Shown: one piece after another, positions 3,691-59,508 of the stretch
Position numbering within the stretch: position 1 is the stretch's first letter
Layout of the letters: each line of letters opens with the position of its first letter
From: Methyloligella sp.
Lineage (GTDB): Bacteria; Pseudomonadota; Alphaproteobacteria; Rhizobiales; HXMU1428-3
Assembly: GCA_021604645.1 (NCBI GenBank)
Contig: BQJJ01000001.1
Span: 186,001 to 250,000 of the forward strand
DNA length: 64,000 bases
Direction: 5' to 3'
Translations under genes and position numbers: made by a program
The notes under the pieces: model-generated
What the model was told of the DNA's origin: nothing
What the model saw: the letters and a program-made list of their open reading frames with translations, nothing else
Databases searched by the model: none

Positions 3691-3755
3691 AGTGACGGTT
3701 GCTGGTGGGCAACTGAAGTGCCACAAAAGCGCTTGAAATAGCCGTGAGAGAAAAT
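3691..3755 (+). repeat. Small two-tier hairpin motif (3691-3724) followed by truncated 3' end of large mosaic element
   Basis: agtgacggttgctggtgggcaactgaagtgccac, then gcgcttgaaatagccgtgagagaaaa. Confidence 0.75.
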
Positions 3756-3765
3756 AAAAACTAGC

Positions 3766-3884
3766 CATACGAATAAGGGAGTGCTCTTCTTTAGAGTGCG
3801 TACATGGCAGCGAGTGCTGCCCGGAGCCTAGCTCCGTCCCTCGGAGGCCCATGAGCTTTAGCTCATGGAATAGCCGTGAGAGAG
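3766..3884 (+). repeat. Large mosaic structured element, copy A
   Basis: CATACGAATAAGGGAG...TACATGGCAGCGAGTGCTGCCCGGAGCCTAGCTCCGTCCCTCGGAGGCCCATGAGCTTTAGCTCATGGAATAGCCGTGAGAGAG. Confidence 0.9.
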
Positions 3885-26798: not shown

Positions 26799-26956
26799 AC
26801 CCGAAGAAGGAGTTCAGCCCTTTTCGGGCTGGAGGACATGGCAACTTTGGCTGTCCGGTAAAAAACGCCGCACAGTGCGGTTGCACGTGGGCAACCTGAA
26901 GCACCTTAAAATGGAGGTCTATGAGCTTCAGCACATAGAATAGCCGTGAGAGAGAA
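26799..26956 (+). repeat. Large mosaic structured element, copy B (with nested small motif)
   Basis: ACCCGAAGAAGGAGTTCAGCCCTTTTCGGGCTGGAGGACATGGC...CTATGAGCTTCAGCACATAGAATAGCCGTGAGAGAGA; nested small hairpin 26875-26903. Confidence 0.88.
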
Positions 26957-26958
26957 AA

Positions 26959-26987
26959 CGCGGTTGCTAGTGGGCAAGCTGAAGCGC
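26959..26987 (+). repeat. Small two-tier hairpin motif, free copy
   Basis: CGCGGTTGCTAGTGGGCAAGCTGAAGCGC. Confidence 0.8.
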
Positions 26988-27002
26988 ATAGAGAGAAAAC
27001 CA

Positions 27003-32561: not shown

Positions 32562-32737
32562 CATGCGAAGAAGGAGTGGCGTCACTTCGGCGTCAGGACA
32601 TGGCGCAGTTGCAGCGAAGCCGGGCGCACAAGATCAGCCCGAACGGAGCGAAGCGAGTACGGATAAGTTGATCACAAGAACTTGCCGCCCCTCGGAGGCT
32701 CAAGCGCCTTAAGCGCTTGAAATAGCCGTGAGAGAAA
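32562..32737 (+). repeat. Large mosaic structured element, copy C (with third insert module)
   Basis: CATGCGAAGAAGGAGTGGCGTC...GTCAGGACATGGC...CCGCCCCTCGGAGGCTCAAGCGCCTTAAGCGCTTGAAATAGCCGTGAGAGAAAG; insert module 32628-32682. Confidence 0.88.
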
Positions 32738-38994: not shown

Positions 38995-39192
38995 ACACGA
39001 AGAAGGAGCTCAGCCTTTTTCGTACTGAGAGACAAGGCGAAGCACTTCGCGTAGTCCGGTGATAGTGCGGTTGCTAAGTGGGCAACTGAAGCACAAGCAA
39101 AAAACTCCGCCCCTCGGAGGCCTTCTGCGCTAGCAGCGCAGTTGCTTGTGGGCAACCTAAAGCGCTACTAAAAAGAATAGCCGTGAGAGAAA
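38995..39192 (+). repeat. Large mosaic structured element, copy D, carrying two nested small motifs
   Basis: ACACGAAGAAGGAGCTCAG...CTCCGCCCCTCGGAGGCCTTCTGCGCTAG...GAATAGCCGTGAGAGAAA; small motifs at 39065-39094 and 39135-39166. Confidence 0.88.
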
Positions 39193-39203: not shown

Positions 39204-39320
39204 ACACGAAGAAGGAGTATTGCCCTTTTCGGGCAATGGGACATGGCAGCGCGAGCTGCCCGGCGCAAGCGCCGCCCCTCGGAGGCCTTCTGCGCTAGCA
39301 GAAGAATAGCCGTGAGAGAT
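39204..39320 (+). repeat. Large mosaic structured element, copy E (canonical uninterrupted form)
   Basis: ACACGAAGAAGGAGTATTGCCCTTTTCGGGCAATGGGACATGGCAGCGCGAGCTGCCCGGCGCAAGCGCCGCCCCTCGGAGGCCTTCTGCGCTAGCAGAAGAATAGCCGTGAGAGA. Confidence 0.93.
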
Positions 39321-39323
39321 AAT

Positions 39324-39356
39324 AGCGACGGTTGCATAGTGGGCAACTGAAGGAGC
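39324..39356 (+). repeat. Small two-tier hairpin motif, free copy
   Basis: AGCGACGGTTGCATAGTGGGCAACTGAAGGAGC. Confidence 0.8.
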
Positions 39357-39371
39357 ACTAAAAAGAGAGAG

Positions 39372-42121: not shown

Positions 42122-42240
42122 CATACGAAGAAGGAGTAACGCCTTTTCGGCGTTAGGACATGGCGCCAGGGGCGTTCGGCGATTAGCGCCGCACCTCGCA
42201 GGGCCCGCAGCGAAGCAGCGGAATAGCCCGTGAGAGAAAA
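42122..42240 (+). repeat. Large mosaic structured element, copy F
   Basis: CATACGAAGAAGGAGTAACGCCTTTTCGGCGTTAGGACATGGCGCCAGGGGCGTTCGGCGATTAGCGCCGCACCTCGCAGGGCCCGCAGCGAAGCAGCGGAATAGCCCGTGAGAGAAAA. Confidence 0.9.
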
Positions 42241-42255
42241 TAAATGGAGAAAATA

Positions 42256-42849
42256 ATGAACAAATTAGAGTTTTGGTATGAGTTCGCCAGTCCGTATTCG
42301 TATTTTTCAATGATGAGAATTGAAACATTAGCAGCTGCTGCAAATGTGGAAGTGCACTATCAACCTTTTCTCCTTGGCCCCTTGTTCAAGGAATTTGGCT
42401 GGGAGACATCTCCATTTAAAATCTATGCAGAAAAAGGGGAAAACTTTTTTCGCGACATTGAGCGCGAAGCTGAGTTTTATGGTCTACCTTCCATCAAAAT
42501 TTTAGATGAATTCCCTCAACCAGGCTTAGCGGCTGCACGTGTTGCGCTTGTTGGCATGAAAGAAGGGTGGGGCGTTGAGTTCTCAAAGGCAATCTATAAG
42601 CGCCAGTTCCAGGATGGCTTGGAAACAAAAAATAAAGAAAATGTTTTGGAAGTTCTAAAGGCTCTGAATATTGAAAATGCTGAAACGGTTTTAGAAAAAG
42701 CAAATGGTGACGATAATAAATCTCACTTGCGCGAGATAATGGAAGTAGCAAAGAAGAAGAAAATCTACGGCGCGCCATCTTTCATTGTAGGAGATGAACT
42801 CTTCTGGGGCAACGACCGCCTGGAGCGCGCGATATCTTATTGCAAATAG
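42256..42849 (+). CDS. 2-hydroxychromene-2-carboxylate isomerase / DsbA-family protein
   Basis: LEFWYEFASPYSYFSMMRIETLAAAANVEVHYQPFLLGPLFKEFGWETSPF...GAPSFIVGDELFWGNDRLE; ATG at 42256 has upstream ggag. Confidence 0.88.
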   Translation: MNKLEFWYEFASPYSYFSMMRIETLAAAANVEVHYQPFLLGPLFKEFGWETSPFKIYAEKGENFFRDIEREAEFYGLPSIKILDEFPQPGLAAARVALVGMKEGWGVEFSKAIYKRQFQDGLETKNKENVLEVLKALNIENAETVLEKANGDDNKSHLREIMEVAKKKKIYGAPSFIVGDELFWGNDRLERAISYCK

Positions 42850-42917
42850 TGGCGGTTGTTAGTGGGCAACTGAAGCCACACAAAAAAGGCGGTTGCTAGT
42901 GGGCAACTGAAGCCGCG
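42849..42917 (+). repeat. Two tandem small two-tier hairpin motifs
   Basis: GTGGCGGTTGTTAGTGGGCAACTGAAGCCAC (42849-42879) and GGCGGTTGCTAGTGGGCAACTGAAGCCGC (42888-42917). Confidence 0.85.
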
Positions 42918-43105
42918 CTAAATCGGACGGCGTATATCATGTTTGATAGGGTATTTTCCACTCCTGACCATTTTTGACTTTCATAGACAATGAATAATTG
43001 AGTATTGAGTTTATTGATCTAAATGACATAAACTTCCAGTATTCTATTAATTTAATGATGTAATTCTAGCATGCATGACTTAAAGAAAATTGCAGAAGAA
43101 TAAAT

Positions 43106-43736: not shown

Positions 43737-43864
43737 CATCCGAAGAAGGAGCTCAGCCATTTTCAGGCTGAGGGACATGGCGTAGTGCGAACGAAGCCCG
43801 GCGCCTAACGCCGCACCTCGTAGGCCTATGAGCTTCAGCTCATAGAATAGCCGTGAGAGAGAGA
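43737..43864 (+). repeat. Large mosaic structured element, copy G
   Basis: CATCCGAAGAAGGAGCTCAGCCATTTTCAGGCTGAGGGACATGGC...CCCGGCGCCTAACGCCGCACCTCGTAGGCCTATGAGCTTCAGCTCATAGAATAGCCGTGAGAGAGA. Confidence 0.9.
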
Positions 43865-58062: not shown

Positions 58063-58235
58063 TGGTTAATTTTGTCCATAAATGGTTTCACACTATGTGC
58101 CCTTAAACAAGTGGTTGGCGCATCGTCTCAACTCAGCTTTTTGTAGGAGATCATGTTTTTGGGTGAGCATTTGATTGTGAGCGTTTATTTCAAAAAACGC
58201 TATACCAAGTATTCCATAGTGCCTTTAGCGATTGT

Positions 58236-58254
58236 AATAACCGTGAGAGAGAAA
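58236..58254 (+). repeat. Degenerate 3' tail of large mosaic element
   Basis: aataaccgtgagagagaaa. Confidence 0.5.
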
Positions 58255-59044: not shown

Positions 59045-59250
59045 TATACAAAGAAGGGAGTGCTCGTCTTCAGAGCACGTACATGACGCCATAGGCGTCC
59101 GGTGTACAAGATCAGCCTGAGCGGAGCTTTGCAAGCACAGATAAGTTGATTGCAAAAATTGCCGCCCCTCGGTTGGTCCATGATCTTCAGCAGCGCGGTT
59201 GCAGATGGGCAACCTAAAGCGCCTCTAAAAAGAAATAACCGTGAGAGAAA
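59045..59250 (+). repeat. Large mosaic structured element, copy H (with insert module and nested small motif)
   Basis: TATACAAAGAAGGGAGTGCTCGTCTTCAGAGCACGTACATGACGCCATAGGCGTCCGG...; insert module 59106-59158; small motif 59193-59222; tail AATAACCGTGAGAGAAA. Confidence 0.85.
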
Positions 59251-59264
59251 TTCCCCAAACCATC

Positions 59265-59431
59265 CATACGAAGAAGGGAGTGCTCGTCTTCAGAGCACGT
59301 ACATGACGCCATGGGCGTCCGTTGCACAAGATCAGCCTGAGCGGAGCTTTGCGAGCACAGATAAGTTGATTGCAAAAAATACCGCCCCTCGGAGGCTCAC
59401 CGCTTCAGCGGTGGAATAGCCGTGAGAGAAA
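59265..59431 (+). repeat. Large mosaic structured element, copy I (with insert module)
   Basis: CATACGAAGAAGGGAGTGCTCGTCTTCAGAGCACGTACATGACGCC...; insert module 59326-59378; CCGCCCCTCGGAGGCTCACCGCTTCAGCGGTGGAATAGCCGTGAGAGAAA. Confidence 0.9.
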
Positions 59432-59434
59432 AAT

Positions 59435-59467
59435 AGCGACGGTTGCTTGTGGGCAACCTGAAGGAGC
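59435..59467 (+). repeat. Small two-tier hairpin motif, free copy
   Basis: AGCGACGGTTGCTTGTGGGCAACCTGAAGGAGC. Confidence 0.8.
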
Positions 59468-59470
59468 AGC

Positions 59471-59508
59471 AAAAAAACGGCCTCTCTGGGGGAAGAGAGG
59501 CCGTTTGA
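59471..59508 (-). terminator. Terminator downstream of transglutaminase-like gene
   Basis: aaaaaaaCGGCCTCTCtgggggaaGAGAGGCCG; minus strand ends in T-run. Confidence 0.85.

Follow-up and report, generated by a model that had tools for sequence, protein, structure and literature searches.

A structured repeat occurs in nine copies in the window

The window (the whole 64-kb stretch of DNA that was analysed) contains nine copies of an element of ~115 nt, here termed M1, all on the + strand according to both the coordinates of the covariance model (CM) matches and sequence patterns. The 18-nt tail of M1 has ten matches in the window, exclusively on the + strand, versus 0.08 expected by chance, and the 11-nt head is exact in six copies; a chance origin of the repeats is thus excluded. 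The genes neighbouring M1 that were tested in the window are ordinary housekeeping genes.

The canonical copy is copy E (39207-39319; 100.9 bits with CM R1, and recognisable by sequence): the head CGAAGAAGGAG is followed by helix S1, the motif GGACATG, helices S2 and S3, CCCCTCGGAGGC, helix S4 and GAATA-GCCGTGAGAGA. Copy A lies at 3770-3883 (114.3 bits), copy F at 42126-42237 (91.9 bits, and by sequence) and copy G at 43741-43860 (102.1 bits). Two partial copies were identified with the tail pattern: a truncated M1 in tandem upstream of copy A, consisting of the 3' tail and the 3' arm of S4 (3736-3753, one mismatch), and a degenerate tail at 58235-58252 (three mismatches).

The five long copies hold nested hairpin modules of two kinds, M2 and M3, identified by repeat search and likewise all on the + strand. 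M2 is a hairpin of ~40 nt (GGTTGC-N-GTGGGCAAC-YTGAAG) with a variable basal stem and an A-rich 3' end; it is found in S1, S3 and S4, either in the loop or in an arm, within another M2, alone or in tandem arrays. Copy B (26802-26953, 60 bits) has an M2 in the region of S3 and the linker (26871-26916) and a second one immediately 3' (26954-26999; both repeat family D1). Copy D (38998-39190, 46 bits), in tandem with copy E, has two, one in the S3 region (39064-39101, family D8) and one in the 3' part of S4 (39132-39177, family D1). In copy H (59049-59248, 54.7 bits), in tandem with copy I, the 3' arm of S4 is replaced by M2 (59189-59234, family D1). Further M2 hairpins adjoin the truncated M1 (3691-3728, family D8), follow immediately 3' of copies E (39321-39364) and I (59432-59475; both family D5), or stand apart from M1 as a tandem pair (42844-42928, families D1, D5 and D8). 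M3 is a module of ~55 nt (ACAAGATCAGCC..GCTGATCGCAAAAA, family D9) for which the S3 loop of M1 was the only location seen: it is present at 32626-32680 in copy C (32566-32735, 81.3 bits), at 59104-59158 in copy H and at 59324-59378 in copy I (59269-59429, 83.4 bits).

A first-pass annotation, made from the sequence alone, had listed nine copies, two truncated tails and a series of compensating stem changes. The CM places all nine copies within a few bases of the positions given there, both tails were found, and the quoted stem changes are present in the sequence. The extent of the phenomenon is larger than reported. The annotation could see neither the nested modules of copies B, C, D, H and I, nor the co-orientation of M1 copies across the genome, nor two further helices and a crossing pair that result from pairing of the CTCGGAGGC block with the tail GCCGTGAGAGA.

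M1 has a conserved fold of six helices and a crossing pair

CM R1 was built from 32 M1 copies and then used for aligning 150 copies. Among the 145 distinct copies from the genus, 95.6% of the cells were paired (75.4% in shuffled alignments), 29 of 33 pairs had changes on both sides and the covariation score was 0.484 (shuffled: 0.149), with none of 500 shuffles as high. The covariation signal was lost when partner columns were slid by one to three positions. For 44 copies that come from other genera and had not been used to build R1, although R1 was used for aligning them, the picture was the same (90.2% paired, covariation score 0.545 versus 0.127). Under the corrected structure, a mixed set reached 94.2% paired and a score of 0.582 (versus 0.134). 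Selection on a folded nucleic acid, as proposed in the first-pass annotation, is therefore strongly supported by covariation within the genus and, again, outside it; whether the folded molecule is RNA or single-stranded DNA is undecided.

The annotation was right in that the stems covary, but its count of four hairpins was too low: the fold has six helices (S1-S6) and one base pair that crosses them. S5 occurs as GGC/GCC, as GGGC/GCCC with one extra compensating pair (copy F), as GGTT/AACC (copy H) and, in the most distant copies, as GCC/GGC. S6 occurs as CTC/GAG, CGC/GCG, ATC/GAT or GTC/GAC; an initial register of the CTC/GAG helix (T-A 44, G-A 26) was rejected, as in the distant copies it is the second triplet that pairs with NNC (T-A 42, G-C 23). 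The pair X-X' around the CCTCG block covaries (C-G, A-T, G-C; in copy G it lies in a ACCTCGTAGG variant) and crosses S6, and the M1 core is therefore pseudoknotted or has a tertiary pair. Strongly conserved unpaired bases are found in the head and in the motifs GACATG, GAATA and GUGA, and there is a conserved bulge and a conserved internal loop. In one genome S1 is of the type GCGAGC..GCGAGC, which would require tandem G-A pairs.

Folding energies, calculated for RNA and for DNA, separate neither the two M1 strands nor RNA from DNA. Stem mismatches on the M1 strand are more often G-T than A-C (104:69, p 0.01, and 33:20, p 0.1), which mildly favours the M1 strand itself as the folded one, but the asymmetry is weak.

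M1 is present in all genomes of the genus and in parts of the order

The genome from which the window originates (G000) has 3.57 Mb in 27 contigs and belongs to a genus of Hyphomicrobiales that includes metagenome-assembled genomes; the placement in the Rhizobiales guessed from the sequence alone is consistent with M1 being found in Hyphomicrobiales. The first-pass annotation had suggested a CM search of the whole genome and of related genomes, and this search identified M1 throughout the genus (8/8 genomes), in 16 genera of the order (25 genomes out of 150 sampled) and in a few genomes elsewhere in the class (at least 6 of 290 sampled genomes, the own genome counted; this is a lower bound, as few candidates were scored per genome). 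An exact-pattern search had indicated restriction to one genus; this is rejected, as CM matches span the order. Copy numbers differ widely: the near relative G002 has at least 150 copies, and 47, 33 and 23 copies were scored in G004, G007 and G005, respectively.

Rfam (release 15) has no match to M1 at gathering score, only a chance match to mir-368 (E 4.7), and the possibility that the element belongs to a known Rfam family, which would have overturned its novelty, is thus not borne out. A literature search found no published description, with the restriction that subscription papers were largely outside its scope. Carriage by plasmids or phages was also rejected: plasmid and phage records have no M1 match, and two viral contigs that matched the pattern had no match to the CM.

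M1 orientation follows replication and not genes

Nearly all M1 copies of a contig are on the same strand: this is true for 144 of the 150 copies listed in G002 (at least 150 are present) and for 44 of 47 copies in G004, and in two syntenic stretches of 400 kb, one from G000 and one from G002, all 27 and all 28 M1 matches, respectively, are on one strand. The M1 strand is the A/C-rich strand. In all ten G002 contigs it has a negative T-A skew and a negative GC skew at fourfold sites, while in five of these contigs the total GC skew is slightly positive or close to zero. The T-A skew of the M1 strand had the expected sign in 20/20 samples of G000 and G004, and in G032, which belongs to a distant family, the GC skew had the expected sign in 6/6 samples. 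The rpoC gene, which is normally on the leading strand, is on the strand opposite to M1 in both G000 and G002; the exception is G004, where rpoC shares the strand of M1; it lies there at 55 kb, the skew of this region is mixed, and the nearest M1 is 199 kb away. From the base skew and the position of rpoC in G000 and G002, M1 is most likely the lagging-strand sequence. The module M2, which likewise occurs genome-wide, has the same polarity as M1 (41:3 and 48:2).

Gene direction does not explain this polarity, because only 51% of the coding sequence is co-directional with M1 and M1 clusters are evenly spread over all gaps that are not divergent: of 41 clusters, 12 are in co-directional, 14 in convergent and 15 in counter-directional gaps. 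None is in a divergent promoter gap, although divergent gaps make up 25% of the background (the clusters are from two syntenic stretches and not all independent). With respect to the neighbouring gene, sense and antisense orientations are equally frequent. An RNA linked to a single gene was rejected as an explanation since the orientation ignores gene direction and, as it follows replication instead, this also argues against M1 being a simple mRNA-borne or UTR-borne RNA.

M1 copies form tandem and head-to-head pairs

M1 is extragenic, located mainly beside gene 3' ends, and has A-rich flanks on both sides; 73 of 192 copies are in tandem. Among the copies listed for G002 and G004, nine are on the minority strand; seven of these have a majority copy no more than 410 nt away, and all seven are arranged head-to-head with it. 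Head-to-head pairs with a spacing of 14-24 nt are recurrent in three further genomes (G018, G083 and G009), and the stems differ between the members of a pair. In G018 (contig C59, L220:480-4100), such pairs lie between structural genes that, judged by eye only, resemble those of phages or gene transfer agents.

The 5' part is extended in some M1 copies (L132, L033, L182), where a TTTATGAATTCATAAA palindrome and, after it, GCTTCTCAA are found about 20-50 nt ahead of the head. A third repeat family (AGAGCGTTCC..CCGGTTTTAGG..GGAACGCT / CTAGAGCAT..ATGCTCTAG) is found at positions 193620, 219857 and 236085 of contig C1 of G000, where G002 has extra DNA; it is polymorphic between the two genomes and resembles known rhizobial palindromic repeats.

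Evidence for mobility is indirect

Presence or absence of M1 varies within 10% sequence divergence. Several copies are present in G002 and not in G000, there is one near-clean empty site at C1:163409, and dispersed copies within one genome can be up to 96% identical. However, current mobility is not shown, because clean empty sites are few and most copies are diverged (median identity to the nearest dispersed copy 0.56-0.81). The ends of solitary copies are unlike each other, and there is no signal for a target-site duplication: words shared between the two flanks have a mean length of 4.2, versus 3.8 in shuffles with a shuffle maximum of 4.3. A MITE with terminal inverted repeats and target-site duplication is therefore rejected, in agreement with the first-pass annotation, which had judged M1 not to be a classical TIR MITE. 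One M1 site is flanked by AAGCTA on both sides, but this is equally well explained as a deletion between direct repeats. No target motif of M1 insertion was found.

No candidate for a mobilising enzyme emerged. The Y1_Tnp, RVT_1 and Y2_Tnp models have matches in G000 and none in G002, a genome that is 99% complete and has at least 150 M1 copies, and RAYT, reverse transcriptase and IS91-type partners of M1 were rejected on the basis of their absence from G002. Y1_Tnp (PF01797) matched in G000 only and in none of the seven other carriers, including G002; RVT_1 had no match in G002 and in four other genomes of the genus. G000 has two Y1-type transposase genes at 11-15 kb of contig C1 (L161, L162) that are missing from the other genus members. 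Its Y1 genes have neither M1 nor M2 alongside, its reverse transcriptase genes are not flanked by M1, and one M2 is near a reverse transcriptase gene of G006.

Possible explanations for the fold and polarity of M1

The explanation we prefer, while considering its chances to be no better than even, is that M1 is a non-autonomous, REP/REPIN-like mobile hairpin element that is inserted at replication forks by an enzyme not yet identified. The folded single strand would be recognised by this enzyme, supplied in trans; new copies would enter the genome at forks with a fixed strand sense, persist for the most part next to gene 3' ends, give rise to tandem or head-to-head duplicates and gather smaller nested M2 hairpins of equal polarity. 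What has been observed is the starting point of this model, namely fold, conservation, range, copy number, polarity, avoidance of divergent gaps, pair geometry and nesting. That M1 moves through a single-stranded intermediate is inferred, and so is the origin of the polarity from insertion rather than selection. Several observations speak against this explanation, among them the lack of a target-site duplication or target motif, the scarcity of clean empty sites and the divergence of most copies. No mobilising enzyme was found in G002. Enzymes of the IS200/IS605 type work on the lagging-strand template, and this template carries the M1 complement, whereas the weak G-T/A-C asymmetry favours the M1 strand. 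Finally, a transposase site would not need anything as elaborate as the crossing pair and the invariant unpaired bases.

The same elaborate core, deeply conserved in its unpaired bases and its crossing pair, would fit a replication-oriented functional site comparable to KOPS, Chi or ssi-type priming signals, read by proteins of the replisome, of repair or of segregation, with misoriented copies removed by selection. Equal polarity of M1 in two distant families and the lack of a detected mobilising enzyme in G002 are also consistent with such a site. We nevertheless consider it unlikely: M1 is patchy both in the order (25/150) and in the class (at least 6/290), its number ranges from 23 scored copies in G005 and 33 in G007 to at least 150 in G002, it comes and goes within 10% divergence, inverted copies are tolerated beside normal ones, and M2, which looks unrelated, has equal polarity.

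A structured RNA with a regulatory, protein-binding or catalytic function, for which dispersal would be secondary, would account for an anatomy that is RNA-like in its six covarying helices, its conserved bulge and internal loop and its crossing pair, and for the excess of G-T over A-C mismatches in stems of the M1 strand. Still, it is quite improbable: orientation is independent of the adjacent genes, transcription would be head-on to replication if M1 were the sense strand, Rfam has no match, and diverged copies that number at least 150 per genome and tolerate hairpin insertions are unlike an ordinary ncRNA gene. Least convincing, and in our opinion very improbable, is a SINE-like retroposon whose RNA would be copied by a reverse transcriptase using nascent strands at the fork as primers, which would produce the replication polarity. 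The A-rich flanks on both sides, the truncated tail-only copies and the precedent set by RmInt1 and other fork-polarised group II introns (PMC5894124) would fit, but RVT_1 is unmatched in G002 and four other genomes of the genus, target-site duplications were not found, and the copies reduced to a tail are rare and could be products of decay.

Only tentatively, and with more doubt than confidence, we propose that M1 represents a new class of fork-polarised, RNA-like structured chromosomal element, with a folded strand that is acted on in a fixed orientation, either as a mobile element of single-stranded DNA or RNA or as a replication-oriented cis signal, and without known HUH transposases or reverse transcriptases.

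Comparison of M1 with known systems

The preferred reading of M1 as a mobile element invites comparison with REP, BIME and REPIN sequences. Like these, M1 is extragenic, present in high copy number, hairpin-forming and located near gene 3' ends, as solitary copies or as tandem or inverted pairs, and the head-to-head pairing of the minority copies resembles REPINs. For the associated enzyme class RAYT (TnpA_REP, Y1 HUH), a link to single-stranded DNA and the replication fork has been proposed (PMC6006769), and in P. fluorescens SBW25 one type of REP array points one way in one half of the genome and the other way in the other half (PMC3116915). M1 differs in its length of ~115 nt, in having six helices plus a crossing pair, in its genome-wide polarity, in the absence of a Y1_Tnp match from seven of eight carrier genomes and in the bases 5' of S1, which are CGAAGAAGGAG or variants, with no GT[AG]G foot in the aligned copies. 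Thus, M1 resembles REP/REPIN in behaviour and fails two defining features, the enzyme and the GT[AG]G foot.

RIME and the A/B/C mosaic elements of Rhizobium/Sinorhizobium are dispersed intergenic palindromic repeats from the same order and are also of mosaic build. A search of 200 kb of S. meliloti pSymB with model R2 gave no match that was convincing, with a best score of 16.9 bits (E 0.08); RIMEs are expected on pSymB, but their positions in this stretch are not known. Br-REP1 and Br-REP2 of Bradyrhizobium are alphaproteobacterial intergenic repeats with several stem-loops too, but their printed consensus sequences contain neither the linkers nor the tail of M1 (PMC5082802). The strand bias of insertion at forks, inferred in the case of M1, is shared with IS200/IS605 transposons and fork-polarised group II introns (PMC6006769, PMC5894124). 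M1 differs from both in having no linked transposase, reverse transcriptase or intron core, and no match to an Rfam intron. Integron attC sites are folded bottom-strand sites recombined by IntI and are associated with cassettes; no cassette arrays were seen with M1.

Bacterial interspersed repeats are usually simple palindromes and their orientation is unclear. M1 combines RNA-grade covariation with a single strand sense relative to replication, genome-wide and in two distant families, with no known mobilising enzyme in the best genome. The data suggest a mobile repeat that has not been described before and that propagates at the replication fork; it offers a testable system for the entry of single-stranded DNA or RNA elements into forks and a candidate lead to a mobilising enzyme or a replication-oriented signal of a new kind.
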